From contig OX421967.1 of assembly GCA_949128115.1 (NCBI GenBank), positions 59,842,855-59,906,854 on the forward strand: a DNA stretch of 64,000 nucleotides. The letters run 5' to 3'. Both the position numbers and the translations under genes were made by a program. Every line of letters begins with the position of its first letter. Positions within the stretch are counted from its first letter, which is position 1. Of this stretch, positions 1 to 64,000 are shown one piece after another. Below the pieces are notes generated by a model. It was given only the letters and a program-made list of their open reading frames with translations, was not told the origin of the DNA and made no database searches. This DNA is from Anaspis maculata. Its lineage: Eukaryota; Arthropoda; Insecta; Coleoptera; Scraptiidae.

Positions 1-18
1 CCCGAAACCGAAAAAACC

Positions 19-34
19 GGTTCTTTTCGGAACC
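19..34 (+). terminator. Histone-type stem-loop of the copy cut by the left edge
   Basis: This belongs to the unit whose ORF ends just before position 1. The 3' arm begins GG instead of AG, so the loop-closing pair is T-G instead of T-A. The other five pairs are intact and the TTTC loop is kept. Confidence 0.7.
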
Positions 35-256
35 AAAAATCATATAACACAAAGAAAATGATCACAAAACGTATCAATCGAGAGAGAAATCTCGGAATAA
101 TGGGAAACTATCGTTTCTAGGAAAAACACGGCCACGTGGATGGCCAAGTTTCACGTTTGAAGTTTTCAGACAGATCCAATTATTGTCACGCCTCACTGGT
201 CGGACAGACAGGTATAAATACTAGGTCGAGCTGGCCACGATTCATTTGTCATTGAA

Positions 257-493
257 ATGGCGCAAGGTGAAGTCGACCCAACTTTCAGCATTGTCCTTGG
301 ATATTTGAAATTGTTACAAGATGACATATTCGATCCGCTCGATTCGGTTCTGACAAGGAACAATCTCAGAATATTCTCGCGACAACTGACGGAAGCTCTG
401 GAGGAGATGACTGTGTCAGACAACACTGGGTCTTTGAGGGAGCTTCTGGAACCCGAGCTGGAACCAGTACAACGAATTCGGCCTCCGGGTTGA
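257..493 (+). CDS. 78-aa acidic protein of unknown family, copy 1 (reference copy)
   Basis: This copy has the majority protein sequence. It is 78 residues, has 14 D/E, 7 K/R and no Cys, and starts MAQGEVDP. I do not recognise the family and found no signal peptide or membrane span. By eye there are three helix-prone stretches, about residues 9-21, 27-51 and 59-69, separated by DDIFDP-like and TVSDNTG loops, then a Pro-rich tail (EPELEPVQRIRPPG). The start is chosen because it is the first ATG after TATA and Inr and has G at -3 and +4. The + strand is preferred to the longer antisense reading because TATA, Inr, stem-loop and downstream element all run this way. The promoter is standard and the stem-loop is intact. 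The downstream element reads ACAAAAAGAAAATG. Coding is likely but unproven. Confidence 0.65.
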   Translation: MAQGEVDPTFSIVLGYLKLLQDDIFDPLDSVLTRNNLRIFSRQLTEALEEMTVSDNTGSLRELLEPELEPVQRIRPPG

Positions 494-750
494 TCCCGAA
501 ACCGAAAAAACCGGTTCTTTTCAGAACCAAAAATCATATAACAAAAAGAAAATGATCACAAAACGTATCAATCGAGAGAGAAATCTCGGAATAATGGGAA
601 ACTTTCGTTTCTAGGGAAAACACGGCCACGTGGATGGCCAAGTTTCACGTGTGAAGTTTTCAGACAGATCTAATTATTGTCACGCCTCACTGGTCGGACA
701 GACAGGTATAAATACTAGGTCGAGCTGGCCACGATTCATTTGTCATTGAA

Positions 751-987
751 ATGGCGCAGGGTGAAGTCGACCCAACTTTCAGCATTGTCCTTGAATATTT
801 GAAATTGTTACAAGATGACATATTCGATCCGCTCGATTCTGTTCTGACAAGGAACAGTCTCAGAATATTCTCGCGACAACTGACGGAAGCTCTGGAGGAG
901 ATGACTGTGTCAGACAACACTGGGTCTTTGAGGGAGCTTCTGGAACCCGAGCTGGAACCAGTACAACGAATTCGGCCTCCGGGTTGA
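751..987 (+). CDS. 78-aa acidic protein, copy 2
   Basis: G15E, N36S (the only N36S in the window). CCAAT is lost (CTAAT). Stem-loop 1007-1022 is perfect. Confidence 0.6.
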   Translation: MAQGEVDPTFSIVLEYLKLLQDDIFDPLDSVLTRNSLRIFSRQLTEALEEMTVSDNTGSLRELLEPELEPVQRIRPPG

Positions 988-1244
988 TCCCGAAACCGAA
1001 AAAACCGGTTCTTTTCAGAACCAAAAATCATATAACACAAAGAAAATGATCACAAAACGTATCAATCGAGAGAGAAATCTCGGAATAATGGGAAACTTTC
1101 GTTTCTAGGAGAAACACGGCCACGTGGATGGCCAAGTTTCACGTGTAAAGTTTTCAGACAGATCCAATATTTGTCGCGCCTCACTGGTCGGACAGACAGG
1201 TATAAATACTAGGTCGAGCTGGCCACGATTCATTTGTCATTGAA

Positions 1245-1481
1245 ATGGCGCAGGGTGAAGTCGACCCAACTTTCAGCATTGTCCTTGAATATTTGAAATT
1301 GTTACAAGATGACATATTCGATCCGCTCGATTCTGTTCTGACAAGGAACAATCTCAGAATATTCTCGCGACAACTGACGGAAGCTCTGGAGGAGATGACT
1401 GTGTCAGACAACACTGGGTCTTTGAGGGAGCTTCTGGAACCCGAGCTGGAACCAGTACAACGAATTCGGCCTCCGGGTTGA
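1245..1481 (+). CDS. 78-aa acidic protein, copy 3
   Basis: G15E. CCAAT present. The outer stem pair is lost (first G of the stem-loop is A). Confidence 0.6.
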   Translation: MAQGEVDPTFSIVLEYLKLLQDDIFDPLDSVLTRNNLRIFSRQLTEALEEMTVSDNTGSLRELLEPELEPVQRIRPPG

Positions 1482-1738
1482 TCCCGAAACCGAAAAAACC
1501 AGTTCTTTTCAGAACCAAAAATCATATAACACAGAGAAAATGATCACAAAACGTATCAATCGAGAGAGAAATCTCGGAATAATGGGAAACTTTCGTTTCT
1601 AGGAGAAACACGGCCACGTGGATGGCCAAGTTTCACGTGTAAAGTTTTCAGACAGATCCAATATTTGTCGCGCCTCACTGGTCGGACAGACAGGTATAAA
1701 TACTAGGTCGAGCTGGCCACGATTCATTTGTCATTGAA

Positions 1739-1975
1739 ATGGCGCAGGGTGAAGTCGACCCAACTTTCAGCATTGTCCTTGAATATTTGAAATTGTTACA
1801 AGATGACATATTCGATCCGCTCGATTCTGTTCTGACAAGGAACAATCTCAGAATATTCTCGCGACAACTGACGGAAGCTCTGGAGGAGATGACTGTGTCA
1901 GACAACACTGGGTCTTTGAGGGAGCTTCTGGAACTCGAGCTGGAACCAGTACAACGAAATCGGCCTCCGGGTTGA
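1739..1975 (+). CDS. 78-aa acidic protein, copy 4
   Basis: G15E, P66L (creates a CTCGAG), I74N. The outer stem pair is A-C. Counterparts are copies 40 and 67. Confidence 0.6.
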   Translation: MAQGEVDPTFSIVLEYLKLLQDDIFDPLDSVLTRNNLRIFSRQLTEALEEMTVSDNTGSLRELLELELEPVQRNRPPG

Positions 1976-2232
1976 TCCCGAAACCGAAAAAACCAGTTCT
2001 TTTCAGAACCAAAAATCATATAACACAGAGAAAATGATCACAAAACGAATCAATCGAGAGAGAAATCTCGGAATAATGAGAAACTATCGTTTTTAGGAAA
2101 AACACGGCCACGTGGATGGCCAAGTTTCACGTTTGAAGTTTTCAGACAGATCCAGTTATTGTCACGCCTCACTGGTCGGACAGACAGGTATAAATACTAG
2201 GTCGAGCTGGCCACGATTCATTTGTCATTGAA

Positions 2233-2469
2233 ATGGCGCAAGGTGAAGTCGACCCAACTTTCAGCATTGTCCTTGGATATTTGAAATTGTTACAAGATGA
2301 CATATTCGATCCGCTCGATTCTGTTCTGACAAGGAACAATCTCAGAATATTCTCGCGACAACTGACGGAAGCTCTGGAGGAGATGACTGTGTCAGACAAC
2401 ACTGGGTTTTCGAGGGAGCTTCTGGAACCCGAGCTGGAACCAGTACAACGAATTCGGCCTCCGGGTTGA
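2233..2469 (+). CDS. 78-aa acidic protein, copy 5
   Basis: S59F, L60S. CCAAT is lost (CCAGT). The outer stem pair is A-C. Counterparts are copies 41 and 68. Confidence 0.6.
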   Translation: MAQGEVDPTFSIVLGYLKLLQDDIFDPLDSVLTRNNLRIFSRQLTEALEEMTVSDNTGFSRELLEPELEPVQRIRPPG

Positions 2470-2726
2470 TCCCGAAACCGAAAAAACCAGTTCTTTTCAG
2501 AACCAAAAATCATATAACACAGAGAAAATGATCACAAAACGAATCAATCGAGAGAGAAATCTCGGAATAATGAGAAACTATCGTTTCTAGGAAAAACACG
2601 GCCACGTGGATGGCAAAGTTTCACGTTTGAAGTTTTCAGACAGATCCAATATTTGTCACGCCTCACTGGTCGGACAGACAGGTATAAATACTAGGTCGAG
2701 CTGGCCACGATTCATTTGTCATTGAA

Positions 2727-2963
2727 ATGGCGCAGGGTGAAGTCGACCCAACTTTCAGCATTGTCCTTGGATATTTGAAATTGTTACAAGATGACATATT
2801 CGATCCGCTCGATTCTGTTCTGACAAGGAACAATCTCAGAATATTCTCGCGACAACTGACGGAAGCTCTGGAGGAGATGACTGTGTCAGACAACACTGGG
2901 TTTTTGAGGGAGCTTCTGGAACCCGAGCTGGAACCAGTACAACGAATTCGGCCTCCGGGTTGA
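2727..2963 (+). CDS. 78-aa acidic protein, copy 6
   Basis: S59F. The outer dyad beside the E-box is broken (TGGCAA). Stem-loop perfect. Confidence 0.6.
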   Translation: MAQGEVDPTFSIVLGYLKLLQDDIFDPLDSVLTRNNLRIFSRQLTEALEEMTVSDNTGFLRELLEPELEPVQRIRPPG

Positions 2964-3220
2964 TCCCGAAACCGAAAAAACCGGTTCTTTTCAGAACCAA
3001 AAATCATATAACACAAAGAAAGTGATCACAAAACGAATCAATCGAGAGAGAAATCTCGGAATAATGAGAAACTATCGTTTCTAGGAAAAACACGGCCACG
3101 TGGATGGCAAAGTTTCACGTTTGAAGTTTTCAGACAGATCCAATATTTGTCACGCCTCACTGGTCGGACAGACAGGTATAAATACTAGGTCGAGCTGGCC
3201 ACGATTCATTTGTCATTGAA

Positions 3221-3457
3221 ATGGCGCAGGGTGAAGTCGACCCAACTTTCAGCATTGTCCTTGGATATTTGAAATTGTTACAAGATGACATATTCGATCC
3301 GCTCGATTCTGTTCTGACAAGGAACAATCTCAGAATATTCTCGCGACAACTGACGGAAGCTCTGGAGGAGATGACTGTGTCAGACAACACTGGGTTTTTG
3401 AGGGAGCTTCTGGAACCCGAGCTGGAACCAGTACAACGAATTCGGCCTCCGGGTTGA
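3221..3457 (+). CDS. 78-aa acidic protein, copy 7
   Basis: S59F, nearly identical to copy 6, so a recent single-unit duplication. The 3' flank carries the rare ATAGAACAC also seen after copies 42 and 69. Confidence 0.6.
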   Translation: MAQGEVDPTFSIVLGYLKLLQDDIFDPLDSVLTRNNLRIFSRQLTEALEEMTVSDNTGFLRELLEPELEPVQRIRPPG

Positions 3458-3714
3458 TCCCGAAACCGAAAAAACCGGTTCTTTTCAGAACCAAAAATCA
3501 TAGAACACAAAGAAAATGATCACAAAACGGATCAATCGAAAGAGAAATCTCGGAATAATGGGAAACTATCTTTTCTAGGAAAAACACGGCCACGTGGATG
3601 GCCAAGTTTCACGTTTGAAGTTTTCAGACAGATCTAATATTTGTCACGCCTCACTGGTCGGACAAACAGGTATAAATACTAGGTCGAGCTGGCCACGATT
3701 CATTTGTCATTGAA

Positions 3715-3951
3715 ATGGCGCAAGGTGAAGTCGACCCAACATTCAGCATTGTCCTTGGATATTTGAAATTGTTACAAGATGACATATTCGATCCGCTCGA
3801 TTCGGTTCTGACAAGGAACAATCTCAGAATATTCTCGCGACAACTGACGGAAGCTCTGGAGGAGATGACTGTGTCAGACAACACTGGGTCTTTGAGGGAG
3901 CTTCTGGAACCCGAGCTGGAACCAGTACAACGAATTCGGCCTCCGGGTTGA
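3715..3951 (+). CDS. 78-aa acidic protein, copy 8
   Basis: Majority protein; Thr9 uses ACA. CCAAT is lost (CTAAT). The upstream spacer has the rare variants CGGATCAATCGAAAG and TATCTTTTCTAG shared with copies 43 and 70. Confidence 0.6.
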   Translation: MAQGEVDPTFSIVLGYLKLLQDDIFDPLDSVLTRNNLRIFSRQLTEALEEMTVSDNTGSLRELLEPELEPVQRIRPPG

Positions 3952-4208
3952 TCCCGAAACCGAAAAAACCGGTTCTTTTCAGAACCAAAAATCATATAAC
4001 ACAAAGAAAATGATCACAAAACGTATCAATCGAGAGAGAAATCTCGGAATAATGGGAAACATTCGTTTCTAGGAAAAACACGGCCACGTGGATGGCCAAG
4101 TTTCACGTGTAAAGTTTTCAGACAGATCCAATATTTGTCACGCCTCACTGGTCGGACAGACAAGTATAAATACTAGGTCGAGCTGGCCACGATTCATTTG
4201 TCATTGAA

Positions 4209-4445
4209 ATGGCGCAGGGTGAAGTCGACCCAACTTTCAGCATTGTCCTTGGATATTTGAAATTGTTACAAGATGACATATTCGATCCGCTCGATTCTGT
4301 TCTGACAAGGAACAATCTCAGAATATTCTCGCGACAACTGACGGAAGCTCTGGAGGAGATGACTGTGTCAGACAACACTGGGTTTTTGAGGGAGCTTCTG
4401 GAACCCGAGCTGGAACCAGTACAACGAATTCGGCCTCCGGGTTGA
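4209..4445 (+). CDS. 78-aa acidic protein, copy 9
   Basis: S59F. The base run before TATA is ACAAG instead of ACAGG. Otherwise standard. Confidence 0.6.
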   Translation: MAQGEVDPTFSIVLGYLKLLQDDIFDPLDSVLTRNNLRIFSRQLTEALEEMTVSDNTGFLRELLEPELEPVQRIRPPG

Positions 4446-4702
4446 TCCCGAAACCGAAAAAACCGGTTCTTTTCAGAACCAAAAATCATATAACACAAAG
4501 AAAGTGATCACAAAACGAATCAATCGAGAGAGAAATCTCGGAATAATGGGAAACAATCGTTTCAAGGAAAAACACGGCCACGTGGATGGCCAAGTTTCAC
4601 GTTTGAAGTTTTCAGACAGATCCAATATTTGTCACGCCTCACTGGTCGGACAGACATCTATAAATACTAGGTCGAGCTGGCCACGATTCAATTGTCATTG
4701 AA

Positions 4703-4939
4703 ATGGCGCAGGGTGAAGTCGACCCAACTTTCAGCATTGTCCTTGGATATTTGAAATTGTTACAAGATGACATATTCGATCCGCTCGATTCTGTTCTGAC
4801 AAGGAACAATCTCAGAATATTCTCGCGACAACTGACGGAAGCTCTGGAGGAGATGACTGTGTCAGACAACACTGGGTCTTTGAGGGAGCTTCTGGAACCC
4901 GAGCTGGAACCAGTACAACGAATTCGGCCTCCGGGTTGA
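4703..4939 (+). CDS. 78-aa acidic protein, copy 10
   Basis: Majority protein. Promoter variant with ATCTATAAATA and initiator TCAATT, which departs from TCAKTY. Confidence 0.6.
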   Translation: MAQGEVDPTFSIVLGYLKLLQDDIFDPLDSVLTRNNLRIFSRQLTEALEEMTVSDNTGSLRELLEPELEPVQRIRPPG

Positions 4940-5018
4940 TCCCGAAACCGAAAAAACCGGTTCTTTTCAGAACCAAAAATCATATAACACAAAGAAAATG
5001 ATCACAAAACGAATCAAT

Positions 5019-5034
5019 CGAGAGAGAAATCTCG
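5019..5034 (+). promoter_or_regulatory. GAGA dyad (representative, copy 11)
   Basis: CGAGAGAGAAATCTCG has 5-bp inverted arms (CGAGA/TCTCG) and contains GAGAGAGA. It sits about 165 bp upstream of the predicted start site in almost every unit. GAGAG is the core bound by GAGA factor and CLAMP in Drosophila, and CLAMP marks the Drosophila histone promoters. Binding here is inference. Confidence 0.4.
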
Positions 5035-5069
5035 GAATAATGGGAAACTATCGTTTCTAGGAGAAACAC

Positions 5070-5085
5070 GGCCACGTGGATGGCC
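5070..5085 (+). promoter_or_regulatory. E-box CACGTG within a GGCC dyad (representative, copy 11)
   Basis: GGCCACGTGGATGGCC contains the perfect palindrome CCACGTGG (CACGTG at 5073-5078) and outer arms GGCCA/TGGCC. CACGTG is the canonical site for bHLH-leucine-zipper proteins of the Myc/Max/USF class. It is kept in nearly all units and lost by substitution in the units of copies 48 and 74. Confidence 0.5.
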
Positions 5086-5115
5086 AAGTTTCACGTTTGA
5101 AGTTTTCAGACAGAT

Positions 5116-5120
5116 CCAAT
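5116..5120 (+). promoter_or_regulatory. CCAAT box (representative, copy 11)
   Basis: CCAAT lies 37 bp upstream of the TATA box and about 68 bp upstream of the predicted start site, the usual place for an NF-Y site in histone promoters. It is polymorphic across the array: 24 of 129 units carry CTAAT, CCAGT or CCGAT instead. Confidence 0.5.
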
Positions 5121-5152
5121 ATTTGTCACGCCTCACTGGTCGGACAGACAGG

Positions 5153-5160
5153 TATAAATA
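5153..5160 (+). promoter_or_regulatory. TATA box TATAAATA (representative, copy 11)
   Basis: TATAAATA starts 31 bp upstream of the A of the initiator, the textbook spacing. It is present in essentially all units. Twelve units, all stop-loss copies, have TATAAATT. Confidence 0.8.
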
Positions 5161-5181
5161 CTAGGTCGAGCTGGCCACGAT

Positions 5182-5187
5182 TCATTT
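5182..5187 (+). promoter_or_regulatory. Initiator TCATTT (representative, copy 11)
   Basis: TCATTT fits the arthropod initiator consensus TCAKTY with A(+1) at 5184. The 5' leader would then be only 13 nt. AGTCGA at 5211-5216 lies exactly at +28 to +33 and matches five of six positions of the downstream promoter element RGWYVT. That match is inside coding sequence and could be chance. The ATG context (G at -3, G at +4) is favourable. Confidence 0.55.
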
Positions 5188-5196
5188 GTCATTGAA

Positions 5197-5433
5197 ATGG
5201 CGCAGGGTGAAGTCGACCCAACTTTCAGCATTGTCCTTGAATATTTGAAATTGTTACAAGATGACATATTCGATCCGCTCGATTCTGTTCTGACAAGGAA
5301 CAATCTCAGAATATTCTCGCGACAACTGACGGAAGCTCTGGAGGAGATGACTGTGTCAGACAACACTGGGTCTTTGAGGGAGCTTCTGGAACCCGAGCTG
5401 GAACCAGTACAACGAATTCGGCCTCCGGGTTGA
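5197..5433 (+). CDS. 78-aa acidic protein, copy 11
   Basis: G15E. All regulatory elements are standard; this unit is used for the representative element entries. Confidence 0.65.
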   Translation: MAQGEVDPTFSIVLEYLKLLQDDIFDPLDSVLTRNNLRIFSRQLTEALEEMTVSDNTGSLRELLEPELEPVQRIRPPG

Positions 5434-5452
5434 TCCCGAAACCGAAAAAACC

Positions 5453-5468
5453 GGTTCTTTTCAGAACC
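5453..5468 (+). terminator. Histone mRNA 3' stem-loop (representative, copy 11)
   Basis: GGTTCTTTTCAGAACC forms a perfect 6-bp stem (GGTTCT/AGAACC) with a TTTC loop. This matches the metazoan replication-dependent histone stem-loop recognised by SLBP: GG start, pyrimidine-rich 5' arm, 4-nt U-rich loop, purine-rich 3' arm ending in CC, A-rich flanks. It starts 20 nt after the TGA stop. Processing would be expected about 5 nt after the stem. On the opposite strand the loop would be GAAA, which does not fit, so the motif also fixes the gene's orientation. Confidence 0.85.
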
Positions 5469-5483
5469 AAAAATCATATAACA

Positions 5484-5495
5484 CAAAGAAAGTGA
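5484..5495 (+). promoter_or_regulatory. Histone-downstream-element-like purine tract (representative, copy 11)
   Basis: CAAAGAAAGTGA begins 16 nt after the stem-loop and resembles the purine-rich element (CAAGAAAGA in sea urchin histone genes) that pairs with U7 snRNA. Units alternate between AAAGTGA and AAAATGA; a few read CAGAGAAAATGA. Position and composition fit, but the U7 RNA of this organism is not available to test the pairing. Confidence 0.6.
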
Positions 5496-5690
5496 TCACA
5501 AAACGAATCAATCGAGAGAGAAATCTCGGAATAATGGGAAACAATCGTTTCAAGGAAAAACACGGCCACGTGGATGGCCAAGTTTCACGTTTGAAGTTTT
5601 CAGACAGATCCAATATTTGTCACGCCTCACTGGTCGGACAGACATCTATAAATACTAGGTCGAGCTGGCCACGATTCAATTGTCATTGAA

Positions 5691-5927
5691 ATGGCGCAGG
5701 GTGAAGTCGACCCAACTTTCAGCATTGTCCTTGGATATTTGAAATTGTTACAAGATGACATATTCGATCCGCTCGATTCTGTTCTGACAAGGAACAATCT
5801 CAGAATATTCTCGCGACAACTGACGGAAGCTCTGGAGGAGATGACTGTGTCAGACAACACTGGGTCTTTGAGGGAGCTTCTGGAACCCGAGCTGGAACCA
5901 GTACAACGAATTCGGCCTCCGGGTTGA
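5691..5927 (+). CDS. 78-aa acidic protein, copy 12
   Basis: Majority protein, promoter as copy 10 (ATCTATAAATA, TCAATT). Part of the dimer pattern. Confidence 0.6.
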   Translation: MAQGEVDPTFSIVLGYLKLLQDDIFDPLDSVLTRNNLRIFSRQLTEALEEMTVSDNTGSLRELLEPELEPVQRIRPPG

Positions 5928-6184
5928 TCCCGAAACCGAAAAAACCGGTTCTTTTCAGAACCAAAAATCATATAACACAAAGAAAATGATCACAAAACGA
6001 ATCAATCGAGAGAGAAATCTCGGAATAATGGGAAACTATCGTTTCTAGGAGAAACACGGCCACGTGGATGGCCAAGTTTCACGTTTGAAGTTTTCAGACA
6101 GATCCAATATTTGTCACGCCTCACTGGTCGGACAGACAGGTATAAATACTAGGTCGAGCTGGCCACGATTCATTTGTCATTGAA

Positions 6185-6421
6185 ATGGCGCAGGGTGAAG
6201 TCGACCCAACTTTCAGCATTGTCCTTGAATATTTGAAATTGTTACAAGATGACATATTCGATCCGCTCGATTCTGTTCTGACAAGGAACAATCTCAGAAT
6301 ATTCTCGCGACAACTGACGGAAGCTCTGGAGGAGATGACTGTGTCAGACAACACTGGGTCTTTGAGGGAGCTTCTGGAACCCGAGCTGGAACCAGTACAA
6401 CGAATTCGGCCTCCGGGTTGA
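6185..6421 (+). CDS. 78-aa acidic protein, copy 13
   Basis: G15E, standard elements; near-identical to copy 11. Confidence 0.6.
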   Translation: MAQGEVDPTFSIVLEYLKLLQDDIFDPLDSVLTRNNLRIFSRQLTEALEEMTVSDNTGSLRELLEPELEPVQRIRPPG

Positions 6422-6678
6422 TCCCGAAACCGAAAAAACCGGTTCTTTTCAGAACCAAAAATCATATAACACAAAGAAAGTGATCACAAAACGAATCAAT
6501 CGAGAGAGAAATCTCGGAATAATGGGAAACAATCGTTTCAAGGAAAAACACGGCCACGTGGATGGCCAAGTTTCACGTTTGAAGTTTTCAGACAGATCCA
6601 ATATTTGTCACGCCTCACTGGTCGGACAGACATCTATAAATACTAGGTCGAGCTGGCCACGATTCATTTGTCATTGAA

Positions 6679-6915
6679 ATGGCGCAAGGTGAAGTCGACC
6701 CAACTTTCAGCATTGTCCTTGGATATTTGAAATTGTTACAAGATGACATATTCGATCCGCTCGATTCGGTTCTGACAAGGAACAATCTCAGAATATTCTC
6801 GCGACAACTGACGGAAGCTCTGGAGGAGATGACTGTGTCAGACAACACTGGGTCTTTGAGGGAGCTTCTGGAACCCGAGCTGGAACCAGTACAACGAATT
6901 CGGCCTCCGGGTTGA
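6679..6915 (+). CDS. 78-aa acidic protein, copy 14
   Basis: Majority protein. ATCTATAAATA promoter but initiator TCATTT; Gln3 CAA and Ser30 TCG distinguish it from copies 10, 12 and 16. Confidence 0.6.
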   Translation: MAQGEVDPTFSIVLGYLKLLQDDIFDPLDSVLTRNNLRIFSRQLTEALEEMTVSDNTGSLRELLEPELEPVQRIRPPG

Positions 6916-7172
6916 TCCCGAAACCGAAAAAACCGGTTCTTTTCAGAACCAAAAATCATATAACACAAAGAAAATGATCACAAAACGAATCAATCGAGAG
7001 AGAAATCTCGGAATAATGGGAAACTATCGTTTCTAGGAGAAACACGGCCACGTGGATGGCCAAGTTTCACGTTTGAAGTTTTCAGACAGATCCAATATTT
7101 GTCACGCCTCACTGGTCGGACAGACAGGTATAAATACTAGGTCGAGCTGGCCACGATTCATTTGTCATTGAA

Positions 7173-7409
7173 ATGGCGCAGGGTGAAGTCGACCCAACTT
7201 TCAGCATTGTCCTTGAATATTTGAAATTGTTACAAGATGACATATTCGATCCGCTCGATTCTGTTCTGACAAGGAACAATCTCAGAATATTCTCGCGACA
7301 ACTGACGGAAGCTCTGGAGGAGATGACTGTGTCAGACAACACTGGGTCTTTGAGGGAGCTTCTGGAACCCGAGCTGGAACCAGTACAACGAATTCGGCCT
7401 CCGGGTTGA
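7173..7409 (+). CDS. 78-aa acidic protein, copy 15
   Basis: G15E, standard elements; third repeat of the copy 11 type. Confidence 0.6.
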   Translation: MAQGEVDPTFSIVLEYLKLLQDDIFDPLDSVLTRNNLRIFSRQLTEALEEMTVSDNTGSLRELLEPELEPVQRIRPPG

Positions 7410-7666
7410 TCCCGAAACCGAAAAAACCGGTTCTTTTCAGAACCAAAAATCATATAACACAAAGAAAGTGATCACAAAACGAATCAATCGAGAGAGAAAT
7501 CTCGGAATAATGGGAAACAATCGTTTCAAGGAAAAACACGGCCACGTGGATGGCCAAGTTTCACGTTTGAAGTTTTCAGACAGATCCAATATTTGTCACG
7601 CCTCACTGGTCGGACAGACATCTATAAATACTAGGTCGAGCTGGCCACGATTCAATTGTCATTGAA

Positions 7667-7903
7667 ATGGCGCAGGGTGAAGTCGACCCAACTTTCAGCA
7701 TTGTCCTTGGATATTTGAAATTGTTACAAGATGACATATTCGATCCGCTCGATTCTGTTCTGACAAGGAACAATCTCAGAATATTCTCGCGACAACTGAC
7801 GGAAGCTCTGGAGGAGATGACTGTGTCAGACAACACTGGGTCTTTGAGGGAGCTTCTGGAACCCGAGCTGGAACCAGTACAACGAATTCGGCCTCCGGGT
7901 TGA
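7667..7903 (+). CDS. 78-aa acidic protein, copy 16
   Basis: Majority protein, promoter as copy 10 (initiator TCAATT). Confidence 0.6.
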   Translation: MAQGEVDPTFSIVLGYLKLLQDDIFDPLDSVLTRNNLRIFSRQLTEALEEMTVSDNTGSLRELLEPELEPVQRIRPPG

Positions 7904-8160
7904 TCCCGAAACCGAAAAAACCGGTTCTTTTCAGAACCAAAAATCATATAACACAAAGAAAGTGATCACAAAACGAATCAATCGAGAGAGAAATCTCGGA
8001 ATAATGGGAAACTATCGTTTCTAGGAGAAACACGGCCACGTGGATGGCCAAGTTTCACGTTTGAAGTTTTCAGACAGATCCAATATTTGTCACGCCTCAC
8101 TGGTCGGACAGACAGGTATAAATACTAGGTCGAGCTGGCCACGATTCAATTGTCATTGAA

Positions 8161-8445
8161 ATGGCGCAGGGTGAAGTCGACCCAATTTTCAGCATTGTCC
8201 TTGAATATTTGAAATTGTTACAAGATGACATATTCGATCCGCTCGATTCTGTTCTGACAAGGAACAATCTCAGAATATTCTCGCGACAACTGACGGAAGC
8301 TCTGGAGGAGATGACTGTGTCAGACAACACTGGGTCCTTGAGGGAGCTTCTGGAACCCGAGCTGGAACCAGTACAACGAATTCGGCCTCCGGGTTGTTCC
8401 CGAAACCGAAAAAACCGGTTCTTTTCAGAACCAAAAATCATATAA
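8161..8445 (+). CDS. 94-aa stop-loss form, copy 17
   Basis: T9I, G15E. First copy in the window in which the TGA stop is TGT (Cys79). The frame then adds CSRNRKNRFFSEPKII and ends at a TAA at 8443-8445. The added residues are basic and are encoded by the stem-loop (8417-8432) and its flanks. The new stop lies 11-13 nt after the stem, beyond the expected histone-type cleavage point, so a processed mRNA would lack it. Initiator TCAATT. Confidence 0.45.
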   Translation: MAQGEVDPIFSIVLEYLKLLQDDIFDPLDSVLTRNNLRIFSRQLTEALEEMTVSDNTGSLRELLEPELEPVQRIRPPGCSRNRKNRFFSEPKII

Positions 8446-8654
8446 CACAAAGAAAATGATCACAAAACGAATCAATCGAGAGAGAAATCTCGGAATAATG
8501 GGAAACTATCGTTTCTAGGAGAAACACGGCCACGTGGATGGCCAAGTTTCACGTTTGAAGTTTTCAGACAGATCCAATATTTGTCACGCCTCACTGGTCG
8601 GACAGACAGGTATAAATACTAGGTCGAGCTGGCCACGATTCATTTGTCATTGAA

Positions 8655-8891
8655 ATGGCGCAGGGTGAAGTCGACCCAACTTTCAGCATTGTCCTTGGAT
8701 ATTTGAAATTGTTACAAGATGACATATTCGATCAGCTCGATTCTGTTCTGACAAGGAACAATCTCAGAATATTCTCGCGACAACTGACGGAAGCTCTGGA
8801 GGAGATGACTGTGTCAGACAACACTGGGTCCTTGAGGGAGCTTCTGGAACCCGAGCTGGAACCAGTACAACGAAATCGGCCTCCGGGTTGA
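8655..8891 (+). CDS. 78-aa acidic protein, copy 18
   Basis: P27Q, I74N. The outer stem pair is A-C. Confidence 0.6.
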   Translation: MAQGEVDPTFSIVLGYLKLLQDDIFDQLDSVLTRNNLRIFSRQLTEALEEMTVSDNTGSLRELLEPELEPVQRNRPPG

Positions 8892-9148
8892 TCCCGAAAC
8901 CGAAAAAACCAGTTCTTTTCAGAACCAAAAATCATATAACACAGAGAAAATGATCACAAAACGAATCAATCGAGAGAGAAATCTCGGAATAATGAGAAAC
9001 TATCGTTTCTAGGAAAAACACGGCCACGTGGATGGCCAAGTTTCACGTTTGAAGTTTTCAGACAGATCCAGTTATTGTCACGCCTCACTGGTCGGACAGA
9101 CAGGTATAAATACTAGGTCGAGCTGGCCACGATTCATTTGTCATTGAA

Positions 9149-9433
9149 ATGGCGCAGGGTGAAGTCGACCCAATTTTCAGCATTGTCCTTGAATATTTGA
9201 AATTGTTACAAGATGACATATTCGATCAGCTCGATTCTGTTCTGACAAGGAACAATCTCAGAATATTCTCGCGACAACTGACGGAAGCTCTGGAGGAGAT
9301 GACTGTGTCAGACAACACTGGGTCCTTGAGGGAGCTTCTGGAACCCGAGCTGGAACCAGTACAACCAATTCGGCCTCCGGGTTGTTCCCGAAACCGAAAA
9401 AACCGGTTCTTTTCAGAACCAAAAATCATATAA
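9149..9433 (+). CDS. 94-aa stop-loss form, copy 19
   Basis: T9I, G15E, P27Q, R73P. CCAAT is lost (CCAGT). Stem-loop perfect. Confidence 0.45.
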   Translation: MAQGEVDPIFSIVLEYLKLLQDDIFDQLDSVLTRNNLRIFSRQLTEALEEMTVSDNTGSLRELLEPELEPVQPIRPPGCSRNRKNRFFSEPKII

Positions 9434-9642
9434 CACAAAGAAAATTATCACAAAACGAATCAATCGAGAGAGAAATCTCGGAATAATGGGAAACTATCGT
9501 TTCTAGGAGAAACACGGCCACGTGGATGGCCAAGTTTCACGTTTGAAGCTTTCAGACAGATCCAATATTTGTCACGCCTCACTGGTCGGACAGACAGGTA
9601 TAAATACTAGGTCGAGCTGGCCACGATTCATTTGTCATTGAA

Positions 9643-9879
9643 ATGGCGCAGGGTGAAGTCGACCCAACTTTCAGCATTGTCCTTGGATATTTGAAATTGT
9701 TACAAGATGACATATTCGATCCGCTCGATTCTGTTCTGACAAGGAACAATCTCAGAATATTCTCGCGACAACTGACGGAAGCTCCGGAGGAGATGACTGT
9801 GTCAGACAACACTGGGTTTTTGAGGGAGCTTCTGGAACCCGAGCTGGAACCAGTACAACAAATTCGGCCTCCGGGTTGA
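9643..9879 (+). CDS. 78-aa acidic protein, copy 20
   Basis: L48P, S59F, R73Q. Pro48 falls in the long predicted helix. The stem-loop is perfect but its 5' flank is AAACGG; the 3' flank reads CCAAGAATC. Confidence 0.55.
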   Translation: MAQGEVDPTFSIVLGYLKLLQDDIFDPLDSVLTRNNLRIFSRQLTEAPEEMTVSDNTGFLRELLEPELEPVQQIRPPG

Positions 9880-10136
9880 TCCCGAAACCAAAAAAAACGG
9901 TTCTTTTCAGAACCAAGAATCATATAACACAAAGAAAATGATCACAAAACGAATCAATCGAGAGAGAAATCTCGGAATAATGGGAAACTATCGTTTCTAG
10001 GAGAAACACGGCCACGTGGATGGCCAAGTTTCACGTTTGAAGTTTTCAGACAGATCCGATATTTGTCACGCCTCACCGGTCGGACAGACAGGTATAAATA
10101 CTAGGTCAAGCTGGCCACGATTCATTTGTCATTGAA

Positions 10137-10373
10137 ATGGCGCAGGGTGAAGTCGACCCAACTTTCAGCATTATCCTTGGATATTTGAAATTGTTACAAG
10201 ATGACATATTCGATCCGCTCGATTCTGTTCTGACAAGGAACAATCTCAGAATATTCTCGCGACAACTGACGGAAGCTCTGGGGGAGATGACTGAGTCAGA
10301 CAACACTGGGTCCTTGAGGGAGCTTCTGGAACCCGAGCTGGAACCAGTACAACGAATTCGGCCTCCGGGTTGA
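10137..10373 (+). CDS. 78-aa acidic protein, copy 21
   Basis: V13I, E49G, V53E. CCAAT is lost (CCGAT). Confidence 0.6.
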   Translation: MAQGEVDPTFSIILGYLKLLQDDIFDPLDSVLTRNNLRIFSRQLTEALGEMTESDNTGSLRELLEPELEPVQRIRPPG

Positions 10374-10630
10374 TCCCGAAACCGAAAAAACCGGTTCTTT
10401 TCAGAACCAAAAATCATATAACACAAAGAAAGTGATCACAAAACGAATCAATCGAGAGAGAAATCTCGGAATAATGGGAAACAATCGTTTCAAGGAAAAA
10501 CACGGCCACGTGGATGGCCAAGTTTCACGTTTGAAGTTTTCAGACAGATCCAATATTTGTCACGCCTCACTGGTCGGACAGACAGGTATAAATACTAGGT
10601 CGAGCTGGCCACGATTCAATTGTCATTGAA

Positions 10631-10867
10631 ATGGCGCAGGGTGAAGTCGACCCAATTTTCAGCATTGTCCTTGAATATTTGAAATTGTTACAAGATGACA
10701 TATTCGATCCGCTCGATTCTGTTCTGACAAGGAACAATCTCAGAATATTCTCGCGACAACTGACGGAAGCTCTGGAGAAGATGACTGTGTCAGACAACAC
10801 TGGGTCTTTGAGGGAGCTTCTGGAACCCGAGCTGGAACCAGTACAACGAATTCGGCCTCCGGGTTGA
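10631..10867 (+). CDS. 78-aa acidic protein, copy 22
   Basis: T9I, G15E, E50K. Initiator TCAATT. Confidence 0.6.
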   Translation: MAQGEVDPIFSIVLEYLKLLQDDIFDPLDSVLTRNNLRIFSRQLTEALEKMTVSDNTGSLRELLEPELEPVQRIRPPG

Positions 10868-11124
10868 TCCCGAAACCGAAAAAACCGGTTCTTTTCAGAA
10901 CCAAAAATCATATAACACAAAGAAAATGATCACAAAACGTATCAATCGAGAGAGAAATCTCGGAATAATGGGAAACTTTCATTTCTAGGAAAAACACGGC
11001 CACGTGGATGGCCAAGTTTCACGTGTGAAGTTTTCAGACAGATCCAATTATTGTCACGCCTTACTGGTCGGACAGACAGGTATAAATACTAGGTCGAGCT
11101 GGCCACGATTCATTTGTCATTGAA

Positions 11125-11361
11125 ATGGCGCAAGGTGAAGTCGACCCAACTTTCAGCATTGTCCTTGGATATTTGAAATTGTTACAAGATGACATATTCG
11201 ATCCGCTCGATTCTGTTCTGACAAGGAACAATCTCAGAATATTCTCGCGACAACTGACGGAAGCTCTGGAGGAGATGACTGTGTCAGACAACACTGGGTC
11301 TTTGAGGGAGCTTCTGGAACCCGAGCTGGAACCAGTACAACGAATTCGGCCTCCGGGTTGA
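11125..11361 (+). CDS. 78-aa acidic protein, copy 23
   Basis: Majority protein. CCAAT present followed by TATTG; a second CACGTG occurs in the spacer (TTTCACGTGTG). Confidence 0.6.
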   Translation: MAQGEVDPTFSIVLGYLKLLQDDIFDPLDSVLTRNNLRIFSRQLTEALEEMTVSDNTGSLRELLEPELEPVQRIRPPG

Positions 11362-11618
11362 TCCCGAAACCGAAAAAACCGGTTCTTTTCAGAACCAAAA
11401 ATCATATAACACAAAGAAAGTGATCACAAAACGAATCAATCGAGAGAGAAATCTCGGAATAATGGGAAACTATCGTTTCTAGGAGAAACACGGCCACGTG
11501 GATGGCCAAGTTTCACGTTTGAAGTTTTCAGACAGATCCAATATTTGTCACGCCTCACTGGTCGGACAGACAGGTATAAATACTAGGTCGAGCTGGCCAC
11601 GATTCAATTGTCATTGAA

Positions 11619-11903
11619 ATGGCGCAGGGTGAAGTCGACCCAATTTTCAGCATTGTCCTTGAATATTTGAAATTGTTACAAGATGACATATTCGATCCGC
11701 TCGATTCTGTTCTGACAAGGAACAATCTCAGAATATTCTCGCGACAACTGACGGAAGCTCTGGAGGAGATGACTGTGTCAGACAACACTGGGTCCTTGAG
11801 GGAGCTTCTGGAACCCGAGCTGGAACCAGTACAACGAATTCGGCCTCCGGGTTGTTCCCGAAACCGAAAAAACCGGTTCTTTTCAGAACCAAAAATCATA
11901 TAA
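11619..11903 (+). CDS. 94-aa stop-loss form, copy 24
   Basis: T9I, G15E. Initiator TCAATT; stem-loop perfect. Same type as copies 17 and 34. Confidence 0.45.
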   Translation: MAQGEVDPIFSIVLEYLKLLQDDIFDPLDSVLTRNNLRIFSRQLTEALEEMTVSDNTGSLRELLEPELEPVQRIRPPGCSRNRKNRFFSEPKII

Positions 11904-12112
11904 CACAAAGAAAATGATCACAAAACGAATCAGTCGAGAGAGAAATCTCGGAATAATGGGAAACTATCGTTTCTAGGAGAAACACGGCCACGTGGATGGC
12001 CAAGTTTCACGTTTGAAGTTTTCAGACAGATCCAATATTTGTCACGCCTCACTGGTCGGACAGACAGGTATAAATACTAGGTCGAGCTGGCCACGATTCA
12101 TTTGTCATTGAA

Positions 12113-12349
12113 ATGGCGCAGGGTGAAGTCGACCCAACTTTCAGCATTGTCCTTGGATATTTGAAATTGTTACAAGATGACATATTCGATCAGCTCGATT
12201 CTGTTCTGACAAGGAACAATCTCAGAATATTCTCGCGACAACTGACGGAAGCTGTGGAGGAGATGACTGTGTCAGACAACACTGGGTCCTTGAGGGAGCT
12301 TCTGGAACCCGAGCTGGAACCAGTACAACGAAATCGGCCTCCGGGTTGA
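12113..12349 (+). CDS. 78-aa acidic protein, copy 25
   Basis: P27Q, L48V, I74N. The outer stem pair is A-C. First member of the second dimer pattern. Confidence 0.6.
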   Translation: MAQGEVDPTFSIVLGYLKLLQDDIFDQLDSVLTRNNLRIFSRQLTEAVEEMTVSDNTGSLRELLEPELEPVQRNRPPG

Positions 12350-12606
12350 TCCCGAAACCGAAAAAACCAGTTCTTTTCAGAACCAAAAATCATATAACAC
12401 AGAGAAAATGATCACAAAACGAATCAATCGAGAGAGAAATCTCGGAATAATGAGAAACTATCGTTTCTAGGAAAAACACGGCCACGTGGATGGCCAAGTT
12501 TCACGTTTGAAGTTTTCAGACAGATCCAGTTATTGTCACGCCTCACTGGTCGGACAGACAGGTATAAATACTAGGTCGAGCTGGCCACGATTCATTTGTC
12601 ATTGAA

Positions 12607-12891
12607 ATGGCGCAGGGTGAAGTCGACCCAATTTTCAGCATTGTCCTTGAATATTTGAAATTGTTACAAGATGACATATTCGATCAGCTCGATTCTGTTC
12701 TGACAAGGAACAATCTCAGAATATTCTCGCGACAACTGACGGAAGCTCTGGAGGAGATGACTGTGTCAGACAACACTGGGTCCTTGAGGGAGCTTCTGGA
12801 ACCCGAGCTGGAACCAGTACAACCAATTCGGCCTCCGGGTTGTTCCCGAAACCGAAAAAACCGGTTCTTTTCAGAACCAAAAATCATATAA
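12607..12891 (+). CDS. 94-aa stop-loss form, copy 26
   Basis: T9I, G15E, P27Q, R73P. CCAAT is lost (CCAGT). Confidence 0.45.
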   Translation: MAQGEVDPIFSIVLEYLKLLQDDIFDQLDSVLTRNNLRIFSRQLTEALEEMTVSDNTGSLRELLEPELEPVQPIRPPGCSRNRKNRFFSEPKII

Positions 12892-13100
12892 CACAAAGAA
12901 AATGATCACAAAACGAATCAATCGAGAGAGAAATCTCGGAATAATGGGAAACTATCGTTTCTAGGAGAAACACGGCCACGTGGATGGCCAAGTTTCACGT
13001 TTGAAGTTTTCAGACAGATCCAATATTTGTCACGCCTCACTGGTCGGACAGACAGGTATAAATACTAGGTCGAGCTGGCCACGATTCATTTGTCATTGAA

Positions 13101-13337
13101 ATGGCGCAGGGTGAAGTCGACCCAACTTTCAGCATTGTCCTTGGATATTTGAAATTGTTACAAGATGACATATTCGATCAGCTCGATTCTGTTCTGACAA
13201 GGAACAATCTCAGAATATTCTCGCGACAACTGACGGAAGCTGTGGAGGAGATGACTGTGTCAGACAACACTGGGTCCTTGAGGGAGCTTCTGGAACCCGA
13301 GCTGGAACCAGTACAACGAAATCGGCCTCCGGGTTGA
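13101..13337 (+). CDS. 78-aa acidic protein, copy 27
   Basis: P27Q, L48V, I74N; same protein as copy 25. The outer stem pair is A-C. Confidence 0.6.
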   Translation: MAQGEVDPTFSIVLGYLKLLQDDIFDQLDSVLTRNNLRIFSRQLTEAVEEMTVSDNTGSLRELLEPELEPVQRNRPPG

Positions 13338-13594
13338 TCCCGAAACCGAAAAAACCAGTTCTTTTCAGAACCAAAAATCATATAACACAGAGAAAATGAT
13401 CACAAAACGAATCAATCGAGAGAGAAATCTCGGAATAATGAGAAACTATCGTTTCTAGGAAAAACACGGCCACGTGGATGGCCAAGTTTCACGTTTGAAG
13501 TTTTCAGACAGATCCAGTTATTGTCACGCCTCACTGGTCGGACAGACAGGTATAAATACTAGGTCGAGCTGGCCACGATTCATTTGTCATTGAA

Positions 13595-13879
13595 ATGGCG
13601 CAGGGTGAAGTCGACCCAATTTTCAGCATTGTCCTTGAATATTTGAAATTGTTACAAGATGACATATTCGATCAGCTCGATTCTGTTCTGACAAGGAACA
13701 ATCTCAGAATATTCTCGCGACAACTGACGGAAGCTCTGGAGGAGATGACTGTGTCAGACAACACTGGGTCCTTGAGGGAGCTTCTGGAACCCGAGCTGGA
13801 ACCAGTACAACGAATTCGGCCTCCGGGTTGTTCCCGAAACCGAAAAAACCGGTTCTTTTCAGAACCAAAAATCATATAA
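13595..13879 (+). CDS. 94-aa stop-loss form, copy 28
   Basis: T9I, G15E, P27Q, with Arg73 kept, unlike its dimer counterparts 26 and 30. CCAAT is lost (CCAGT). Confidence 0.45.
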   Translation: MAQGEVDPIFSIVLEYLKLLQDDIFDQLDSVLTRNNLRIFSRQLTEALEEMTVSDNTGSLRELLEPELEPVQRIRPPGCSRNRKNRFFSEPKII

Positions 13880-14088
13880 CACAAAGAAAATGATCACAAA
13901 ACGAATCAGTCGAGAGAGAAATCTCGGAATAATGGGAAACTATCGTTTCTAGGAGAAACACGGCCACGTGGATGGCCAAGTTTCACGTTTGAAGTTTTCA
14001 GACAGATCCAATATTTGTCACGCCTCACTGGTCGGACAGACAGGTATAAATACTAGGTCGAGCTGGCCACGATTCATTTGTCATTGAA

Positions 14089-14325
14089 ATGGCGCAGGGT
14101 GAAGTCGACCCAACTTTCAGCATTGTCCTTGGATATTTGAAATTGTTACAAGATGACATATTCGATCAGCTCGATTCTGTTCTGACAAGGAACAATCTCA
14201 GAATATTCTCGCGACAACTGACGGAAGCTGTGGAGGAGATGACTGTGTCAGACAACACTGGGTCCTTGAGGGAGCTTCTGGAACCCGAGCTGGAACCAGT
14301 ACAACGAAATCGGCCTCCGGGTTGA
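14089..14325 (+). CDS. 78-aa acidic protein, copy 29
   Basis: P27Q, L48V, I74N. The outer stem pair is A-C. Confidence 0.6.
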   Translation: MAQGEVDPTFSIVLGYLKLLQDDIFDQLDSVLTRNNLRIFSRQLTEAVEEMTVSDNTGSLRELLEPELEPVQRNRPPG

Positions 14326-40247: not shown

Positions 40248-40279
40248 GTCGAGCTGGCCACGATTCATTTGTCATTGAA

Positions 40280-61805: not shown

Positions 61806-62014
61806 CACAAAGAAAGTGATCACAAAACGAATCAATCGAGAGAGAAATCTCGGAATAATGGGAAACAATCGTTTCAAGGAAAAACACGGCCACGTGGATG
61901 GCCAAGTTTCACGTTTGAAGTTTTCAGACAGATCCAATATTTGTCACGCCTCACTGGTCGGACAGACAGGTATAAATTCTAGGTCGAGCTGGCCACGATT
62001 CATTTGTCATTGAA

Positions 62015-62299
62015 ATGGCGCAGGGTGAAGTCGACCCAACTTTCAGCATTGTCCTTGGATATTTGAAATTGTTACAAGATGACATATTCGATCCGCTCGA
62101 TTCTGTTCTGACAAGGAACAATCTCAGAATATTCTCGCGACAACTGACGGAAGCTCTGGGGGAGATGACTGTGTCAGACAACACTGGGTCCTTGAGGGAG
62201 CTTCTGGAACCCGAGCTGGAACCAGTGCAACGAATTCGGCCTCCGGGTTGTTCCCGAAACCGAAAAAACCGGTTCTTTTCAGAACCAAAAATCATATAA
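62015..62299 (+). CDS. 94-aa stop-loss form, copy 126
   Basis: E49G without V53E; TATAAATT. Confidence 0.45.
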   Translation: MAQGEVDPTFSIVLGYLKLLQDDIFDPLDSVLTRNNLRIFSRQLTEALGEMTVSDNTGSLRELLEPELEPVQRIRPPGCSRNRKNRFFSEPKII

Positions 62300-62508
62300 C
62301 ACAAAGAAAATGATCACAAAACGAATCAATCGAGAGAGAAATCTCGGAATAATGGGAAACTATCGTTTCTAGGAGAAACACGGCCACGTGGATGGCCAAG
62401 TTTCACGTTTGAAGTTTTCAGACAGATCCAATATTTGTCACGCCTCACTGGTCGGACAGACAGGTATAAATACTAGGTCGAGCTGGCCACGATTCATTTG
62501 TCATTGAA

Positions 62509-62793
62509 ATGGCGCAGGGTGAAGTCGACCCAACTTTCAGCATTGTCCTTGGATATTTGAAATTGTTACAAGATGACATATTCGATCCGCTCGATTCTGT
62601 TCTGACAAGGAACAATCTCAGAATATTCTCGCGACAACTGACGGAAGCTCTGGAGGAGATGACTGTGTCAGACAACACTGGGTCCTTGAGGGAGCTTCTG
62701 GAACCCGAGCTGGAACCAGTGCAACGAATTCGGCCTCCGGGTTGTTCCCGAAACCGAAAAAACCGGTTCTTTTCAGAACCAAAAATCATATAA
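62509..62793 (+). CDS. 94-aa stop-loss form, copy 127
   Basis: Majority core; Val71 GTG; TATAAATA. Confidence 0.45.
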   Translation: MAQGEVDPTFSIVLGYLKLLQDDIFDPLDSVLTRNNLRIFSRQLTEALEEMTVSDNTGSLRELLEPELEPVQRIRPPGCSRNRKNRFFSEPKII

Positions 62794-63002
62794 CACAAAG
62801 AAAGTGATCACAAAACGAATCAATCGAGAGAGAAATCTCGGAATAATGGGAAACTATCGTTTCTAGGAGAAACACGGCCACGTGGATGGCCAAGTTTCAC
62901 GTTTGAAGTTTTCAGACAGATCCAATATTTGTCACGCCTCACTGGTCGGACAGACAGGTATAAATACTAGGTCAAGCTGGCCACGATTCATTTGTCATTG
63001 AA

Positions 63003-63239
63003 ATGGCGCAGGGTGAAGTCGACCCAACTTTCAGCATTGTCCTTGAATATTTGAAATTGTTACAAGATGACATATTCGATCCGCTCGATTCTGTTCTGAC
63101 AAGGAACAATCTCAGAATATTCTCGCGACAACTGACGGAAGCTCTGGAGGAGATGACTGAGTCAGACAACACTGGGTCCTTGAGGGAGCTTCTGGAACCC
63201 GAGCTGGAACCAGTACAACGAATTCGGCCTCCGGGTTGA
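63003..63239 (+). CDS. 78-aa acidic protein, copy 128
   Basis: G15E, V53E without E49G. Standard elements. Confidence 0.6.
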   Translation: MAQGEVDPTFSIVLEYLKLLQDDIFDPLDSVLTRNNLRIFSRQLTEALEEMTESDNTGSLRELLEPELEPVQRIRPPG

Positions 63240-63496
63240 TCCCGAAACCGAAAAAACCGGTTCTTTTCAGAACCAAAAATCATATAACACAAAGAAAGTG
63301 ATCACAAAACGAATCAATCGAGAGAGAAATCTCGGAATAATGGGAAACTATCGTTTCTAGGAAAAACACGGCCACGTGGATGGCCAAGTTTAACGTTTGA
63401 AGTTTTCAGACAGATCCAATATTTGTCACGCCTCACTGGTCGGACAGACAGGTATAAATACTAGGTCGAGCTGGCCACGATTCATTTGTCATTGAA

Positions 63497-63733
63497 ATGG
63501 CGCAGGGTGAAGTCGACCCAACTTTCAGCATTGTCCTTGGATATTTGAAATTGTTACAAGATGACATATTCGATCCGCTCGATTTTGTTCTGACAAGGAA
63601 CAATCTCAGAATATTCTCGCGACAACTGACGGAAGCTCTGGAGGAGATGACTGTGTCAGACAACACTGGGTCTTCGAGGGAGCTTCTGGAACCCGAGCTG
63701 GAACCAGTACAACGAACTCGGCCTCCGGGTTGA
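63497..63733 (+). CDS. 78-aa acidic protein, copy 129
   Basis: S30F, L60S, I74T. Spacer TTTAACG. Confidence 0.6.
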   Translation: MAQGEVDPTFSIVLGYLKLLQDDIFDPLDFVLTRNNLRIFSRQLTEALEEMTVSDNTGSSRELLEPELEPVQRTRPPG

Positions 63734-63990
63734 TCCCGAAACCGAAAAAACCGGTTCTTTTCAGAACCAAAAATCATATAACACAAAGAAAATGATCACA
63801 AAACGAATCAATCGAGAGAGAAATCTCGGAATAATGGGAAACAATCGTTTCAAGGAAAAACACGGCCACGTGGATGGCCAAGTTTCACGTTTGAAGTTTT
63901 CAGACAGATCCAATATTTGTCACGCCTCACTGGTCGGACAGACAGGTATAAATACTAGGTCGAGCTGGCCACGATTCATTTGTCATTGAA

Positions 63991-64000
63991 ATGGCGCAGG
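63991..64000 (+). CDS. First codons of copy 130, cut by the right edge
   Basis: ATGGCGCAGG is visible after a standard TATA and initiator. The array continues beyond the window. Confidence 0.6.

Follow-up and report, generated by a model that had tools for sequence, protein, structure and literature searches.

A tandem array of a putative orphan gene with a histone-type 3′ end in a beetle genome

Overview

The window, by which we mean the whole analysed stretch of DNA (1..64000, + strand), is a single head-to-tail array of a 494-bp unit in 130 copies. The unit combines an open reading frame (ORF) for an acidic, non-histone protein with the stem-loop and histone downstream element (HDE) of the host histone genes. 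A sequence-only reading had proposed a tandem non-histone gene with the layout of a histone gene, and this proposal is borne out by the same loop, HDE and spacing in the host's own histone genes. The explanation that we favour, with little more than even confidence, is an orphan acidic-protein gene that carries an H4-type 3′ cassette, has been amplified to at least two arrays and would yield a message processed by SLBP and U7.

Layout of the array and of one unit

The array lies on chromosome C7 at about 59.49–59.92 Mb of a 758 Mb genome, which its histone H1 assigns to a beetle, and extends past both ends of the window. The earlier claim of a 494-bp unit repeated at least 129 times agrees with the 130 TATA/ATG anchors found here, which are separated by 494 bp in 126 of 129 intervals (the remainder are 493, 493 and 504 bp), and TRF returns a period of 494 with 98% matches in the first 10 kb. 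The second unit in the window (495..988, +) is taken as representative. Judged by its motifs, each unit is a compact Pol II gene layout of TATA box and initiator, ORF, stem-loop and downstream element. The TATA box TATAAATA (707..714, +) occurs in exact form upstream of 117 of the 129 copies. The A of the putative initiator TCATTT (736..741, +) is 31 nt past the first T of the TATA box, which is the canonical TATA/Inr spacing. A candidate CCAAT box is seen in the third unit (1164..1168, +), 32 nt upstream of the TATAAATA of the same unit (1201–1208). Thus, the upstream CCAAT, TATA and Inr motifs named in the sequence-only reading are present, the CCAAT box being variant in some units. With an uninterrupted ORF and TATA/Inr motifs of its own, the unit resembles the intronless replication-dependent histone genes, and these motifs would serve as its own promoter. 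AATAAA and ATTAAA are absent from the + strand of the window, which is weak evidence because the unit is only 494 bp.

The ORF and its product

The ORF (751..987, +) runs from the ATG at 751 to the TGA at 985–987 and encodes 78 residues with a computed pI of 4.30. A 78-codon ORF had been assigned to every unit; this holds for 87 of the 129 complete copies in the window and fails for the others, in which the ORF has 94 codons (41 copies) or 118 codons (one copy). These 42 copies, which partly occur in runs, have lost the normal TGA, and the ORF crosses the stem-loop, so that the next stop lies past the site at which the message is presumably cleaved; the first of the 94-codon copies is at 8161..8445 (+). 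Under dinucleotide shuffling, 78 open codons arise by chance with a P of about 0.025, and the ORF by itself is therefore only modest evidence.

The protein had been described as acidic and as none of the five histones, and a search for its relatives had been proposed. The description is upheld: the unit does not encode H1, H2A, H2B, H3 or H4, and BLASTP against the five histones gives a best E of 0.68, showing no similarity. The search, now run, found no relative among 5.8 billion proteins, by a method that requires three shared 5-residue words and thus excludes only fairly close relatives, and none in the PDB or among viral contigs; the best Pfam match, a TTI1 repeat (E 0.17), is below the cut-off. 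As a control, host H1 gave at least 2,398 matches in the same protein search (7,991 best candidates scored). The named top entries among the 120 matches listed are beetles (the best with 78% identity across 50% of the query), so the database includes beetle proteins, and no entry among those listed resembles the source species. AlphaFold run on the single sequence gives three helices with a mean pLDDT of 59, which is too weak for fold comparison, and the product is probably a small acidic helical protein. On its sequence, the ORF is best read as a beetle-lineage orphan gene to which these databases contain no recognizable relative. A viral origin was dropped, since there is no viral-contig relative and the 3′ signal is of the cellular histone type. 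A degenerate histone gene was rejected for the coding part, which has no histone similarity, and was retained for the 3′ cassette.

The 3′ end compared with the host histone genes

The stem-loop GGTTCTTTTCAGAACC (1007..1022, +), with 6 bp and a 4-nt loop, lies 19 nt past the stop, and the HDE CAAAGAAAATGATC (1038..1051, +) follows 15 nt past the loop. Exact GGTTCTTTTCAGAACC is found 100 times on the + strand of the window and never on the − strand; 29 of the 129 copies carry loop variants, and full 6-bp pairing is absent from 24. There are 64 exact window copies of the HDE. Its 13-nt core AAAGAAAATGATC is present in 65 of 129 copies, and 63 of the remaining 64 differ by a single A-to-G change. 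Of the 129 copies, 34 combine a TATA box, a 78-codon ORF, a loop that pairs and the HDE core. In the whole genome the exact loop occurs 1,108 times, against 3 for the loop read backwards, and up to 1,096 of the exact loops are on C6, C7 or later contigs as compared with 11 on C4, with their places listed in part.

Model R1, for which the host's five true histone 3′ ends were the sole input, matches all 130 window loops with E values from 1.2e-6 to 0.012. Across eight sources, its best match beyond the arrays and one histone-derived site (L012) reaches 21 bits (E 0.21). The Rfam Histone3 model scores 19–32 bits on the seven loops in the first 3 kb, below its gathering score of 34, and hence gives no match at that score in 1–20000. 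R1 and the host histone genes together support the histone stem-loop and downstream purine-rich element recognized in the sequence-only reading.

The host histone cluster is on C4 (14.905–14.946 Mb) and contains 16 genes within the 60 kb searched: four for H4 and three each for H1, H2A, H2B and H3. The unit is like these replication-dependent genes in its uninterrupted coding part, its CCAAT/TATA/Inr motifs and its tandem arrangement, and the likeness is closest at the 3′ end. The 16-nt loop is identical in host H2B, H3 and H4, and the 14 letters of CAAAGAAAATGATC are also present in the H4 genes. The loop-to-HDE distance is 15 nt in the unit, H2A, H2B and H3 (in these three histone genes with a CAAAGAA core) and 14 nt in H4. 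Unit positions 11–64 align to the H4 3′ end with 85% identity over 54 nt (E 1e-10); the remainder of the unit has no match to the cluster at E ≤ 1. The unit also departs from the histone genes in several respects. Its loop is 19 nt past the stop, whereas that of H2B, H3 and H4 is 64–80 nt past it; the loop flanks are CC...AAAAA rather than TC...ACAA; the protein is acidic and resembles none of the five histones; and the located arrays are on C6 and C7, outside the C4 cluster.

SLBP and U7

On C3, two stretches lying near each other exceed the cut-off for the SLBP domain (PF15247), which nothing in 14 control genomes does, so the host carries this domain. One of the two stretches contains a TGA and a TAA, probably at an exon edge, and the gene model is thus not proven. 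The Rfam U7 model gives four matches in the host genome, the best with 26 bits and all below the cut-off, as also occur in 12 of the 14 controls; near the best of them (L050), no anti-HDE sequence with an Sm site was recognized.

A second array and variation among copies

A second array of the unit is present on another chromosome, C6, giving at least two arrays of, by length, about 114 and 860–890 copies. Matches L046 and L048 in the C6 samples are chance matches and not array units. The frame is open in all 79 sampled C6 copies, and at least 78 codons are open in 211 of 212 sampled C7 copies. Small indels were compared in 287 intervals from seven C7 and four C6 stretches, and all eight distinct events fall outside the ORF (p 0.008). 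A transposon is inserted in one ORF (L013) and, when included, brings the tally to one event within the ORF among nine (p 0.026). The ORF also has fewer variable sites (35 of 237) than the sequence outside it (57 of 256; p 0.04).

Between the consensus sequences of the two arrays, 15 of the 494 sites differ, and the first 120 nt, with the loop and HDE, are free of differences (p 0.015); nine differences are strictly fixed in the samples, six of them within the ORF. C7 has 39 replacement and 12 silent variants (p 0.54) and C6 has 7 of each (p 0.08), where the expected ratio is 659:256; the arrays differ from each other by 8 replacement and 2 silent changes (p 0.74). These ratios are near neutral and therefore reveal no clear protein constraint within or between arrays. 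Together with the lost stops, they count against a simple reading in which the array supplies protein in bulk. On C7, many of the copies are likely to be passengers in decay.

Possible origin and alternative explanations

In the explanation that we favour, a lineage-specific orphan gene would have acquired the H4-type stem-loop and downstream element, and unequal exchange would have amplified it into at least two arrays. Pol II would transcribe each unit from its own TATA/Inr promoter to give a message of about 300 nt. SLBP would bind this message, a U7-guided cut would follow past the stem-loop and no poly(A) would be added; the supply may then track replication, or else a stage in the germline or the embryo.

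The near-neutral ratios, the lost stops, the loop variants and a block duplication spanning 27 units can also be accommodated by a satellite-like passive array, in which a small gene, formerly functional and with a 3′ end of the histone type, was swept into unequal exchange and is now drifting, and its copies are mostly silent or give RNA or protein without a role. We regard this as a serious but rather unlikely alternative, given that small indels avoid the ORF, the C6 frames are all open, the ORF is the less variable part and the loop and HDE are the same in both consensus sequences. The avoidance of the ORF by small indels also counts against a role at the RNA level, in which the RNA rather than the protein would matter: the hundreds of loop/HDE copies could compete with the true histone genes for SLBP and U7 and thereby tune the production of histone mRNA or disturb it. 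That C4 carries so few of the exact loops, and that the two consensus sequences agree in the 3′ signal while differing in the protein, is consistent with such competition, but the loop itself varies in 29 window copies, and we consider the idea improbable. By analogy with Stellate-type arrays, a selfish germline amplicon (a drive gene or its suppressor) might use replication-linked 3′ processing for germline expression; the orphan protein and the fixed differences between arrays on two chromosomes would suit it, and it seems to us the least probable of these possibilities.

To our knowledge, the histone-type 3′ signal is restricted to histone messages in animals, and a literature search by titles returned no report of such an array. 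It is possible, although we propose it tentatively, that a non-histone gene in about a thousand copies is here wholly under SLBP/U7 processing through a captured H4 3′ end; no other class of replication-type mRNA gene in the beetle would then come near it in number, and it would be the first non-histone gene to be a natural client of the pathway. A non-histone gene carrying the complete signal in many hundred copies lets one ask, in a natural setting, whether the specificity of the pathway is by design or lies only in gene content. Set against the 16 histone genes in the cluster searched, it also raises the question of how the cell manages when potential substrates of SLBP and U7 are in large excess.

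Among known systems, Stellate-type genes are amplified germline genes. Like the unit, they form a large tandem array built from a single small gene, include many imperfect copies and occupy two chromosomal sites; the unit differs in its histone-type 3′ end. The array is like satellite DNA in its head-to-tail 494-bp repeat, local homogenization and block duplication. Unlike satellite DNA, the unit holds a complete gene layout, with the frame open in nearly all sampled copies.

The 3′ end of the repeat unit

Judged by comparison within the same genome, the 3′ end of the 494 bp unit is a genuine histone 3′ end. In 60 kb searched, the histone cluster on contig C4 contains four H4, three H3, three H2B, three H2A and three H1 genes. 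The H2B, H3 and H4 genes carry the loop GGTTCTTTTCAGAACC, which is identical to the loop of the unit, and the H1 and H2A loops are GGCCCTTCTAAGGGCC and GGCCCTTCTCAGGGCC. The core of the histone downstream element (HDE), CAAAGAA, lies 15 nt after the loop in the unit as in H2A, H2B and H3, and 14 nt after it in H4. The unit resembles replication-dependent histone genes in both its loop and its HDE spacing, and the element expected to pair with U7 lies 3′ of the loop as the sequence-only reading had proposed. The H4 3′ end aligns with positions 11–64 of the unit at 85% identity (E = 1e-10); outside these positions, no match to the histone cluster was found at E ≤ 1. The histone-type 3′ end recognized earlier from the unit alone is therefore borne out.

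A covariance model built from a single 3′ end of each histone type (H1, H2A, H2B, H3 and H4) recovered all 130 window loops at 27–45 bits. In the eight sources searched, nothing exceeded 21 bits outside the arrays and a histone-derived site in the sampled stretch L012; with the Rfam Histone3 model, the loops in the first 20 kb of the window stayed below the gathering score. In 24 of the 129 complete window copies, the stem is not fully paired. The L012 site (4755–4785; C5:39203762) is a dispersed copy of the H4 3′ UTR with its stem-loop, truncated just before the HDE, and no H4 gene accompanies this fragment in L012. Therefore, histone 3′ ends have moved at least once more in this genome.

Some features of the histone genes were also observed. 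The H2B matches PDB H2B chains over its full length, the best of which we take to be from Drosophila nucleosomes. The named proteins listed as closest to its H1 come from beetles such as Tenebrio (78% across half of the protein), and we regard the genome as that of a beetle. Two of the four H4 genes (C4 14914010 and 14932451) lack the upstream promoter stretch common to the other two, and reverse-transcriptase-like ORFs lie upstream of both. In the sampled stretch L015 (C4:14540607), a solitary H3-like 3′ end carrying both a stem-loop and an HDE adjoins apparently degraded H3 sequence, also with a reverse-transcriptase-like ORF upstream, and is a probable H3 pseudogene.

Array extent and copy number

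The whole window (C7:59,842,855–59,906,854) is one tandem array. TATA/ATG anchors number 130, with 126 of 129 intervals exactly 494 bp, which agrees with the at least 129 copies claimed; TRF on the first 10 kb gave a period of 494 bp with 98% matches. Six additional samples from C7, lying between 59.533 and 59.917 Mb, were all array, so the array exceeds the window on both sides; samples at 59.483 and 59.927 Mb were not array. Among the protein matches listed, it starts at 59.4933 Mb. Estimated from length rather than counted, it would hold about 860–890 copies if uninterrupted. A second array at about C6:1,225.8–1,282.1 kb holds ∼114 copies by length; its copies among the matches listed all have open frames, and a C6-type promoter allele occurs 98 times genome-wide, always on C6.

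In the whole assembly (757,842,296 bp, 50 contigs), exact copies of GGTTCTTTTCAGAACC number 1,100 in the forward and eight in the reverse direction. Among the first 100 places, which were those listed, C4 and C5 account for four forward and all eight reverse occurrences; if, as it seems, places run in contig order, this leaves up to 1,096 forward loops for C6, C7 and the contigs after them. Because the length estimates for C6 and C7 fall short of the genome-wide total, more copies are likely on contigs beyond those among the places listed. Among titles in the open-licence literature, we found no report of a comparable array, and none is described in passages of PMC3156773 and PMC1924863.

Putative promoter, predicted processing and open frame

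The upstream half of the unit looks like a core promoter by its motifs and is predicted to be active. It contains CCAAT, TATAAATA and TCATTT, followed by a leader of ∼13 nt. The A of TCATTT lies 31 nt after the initial T of TATA, and the CCAAT, TATA and Inr motifs named in the earlier reading are present. A short GAGAGAG stretch also occurs between the HDE and the promoter (unit positions ∼79–85 in the window); in Drosophila, GA repeats mark the H3/H4 promoter.

Each unit would be transcribed by Pol II, with stem-loop binding protein (SLBP) binding the loop and U7 pairing with the HDE. The transcript would be cut between the two, giving a non-polyadenylated message of ∼300 nt. On C3, two neighbouring stretches encode an SLBP domain, and one of them has internal stops, probably at the edge of an exon; a search of the genome with the Rfam U7 model did not identify U7 snRNA. 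AATAAA and ATTAAA are absent from the forward strand of the window, which carries little weight because the unit is short. If transcribed, the array would supply many more loops than the histone genes found; therefore, silencing, or expression confined to certain stages or tissues, is predicted.

The 78-codon ORF claimed for each unit is present in 87 of the 129 complete window copies; loss of the TGA extends it to 94 codons in 41 and to 118 in one. Counting sampled copies only where at least 360 bases remain before the stretch end, 155 of 212 on C7 have 78 codons (94 in 55, 118 in one and 27 in one), as do all 79 on C6. Histone cleavage is expected ∼5 nt after the stem. The stop of the 94-codon ORF lies beyond this position, so copies of this form should yield non-stop messages.

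Selection and homogenization

Across 190 aligned C7 units, excluding those that adjoin irregular spacings or stand at the end of a stretch, variants comprise 39 replacement, 12 silent, one stop-gain and one stop-loss; the replacement:silent ratio is 7:7 in 69 C6 units, and the expectation is 659:256 (transition weight 2). The C6 and C7 consensus sequences differ at five non-coding, eight replacement and two silent sites. For the protein, none of these tests (C7, C6 or between arrays) shows a significant departure from neutrality; C6 leans to silent changes (p = 0.08). None of eight distinct small indel events falls within the ORF (p = 0.008; one of nine counting the transposon described below, p = 0.026), none of the 15 consensus differences lies in the first 120 nt (p = 0.015) and variable sites are fewer in the ORF (p = 0.04), p values that are optimistic because copies share history and indels were registered only where spacing changed. 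Our reading is weak constraint on the open frame and 3′ signal, with a loose or changing protein sequence.

The array also has higher-order structure, a recent block duplication at ∼17.8–29 and 30.6–42 kb of the window, located from matching scores of the covariance-model search. Similarity is greatest between units separated by 27 positions (13.3 kb), with 19% of 102 pairs differing at no more than one of 480 sites. The stop-lost copies (window 8161–62793) lie partly in runs, for example at 50.2–55.4 and 59.5–62.8 kb, a sign of local homogenization. One transposon interrupts the C7 array, in the sampled stretch L013 (C7:59833000–59842854). This 2,235 bp DNA-transposon-like insert (4007–6241) splits the ORF of one unit, the 27-codon copy, and has perfect 30 bp terminal inverted repeats with ATAT flanking both sides.
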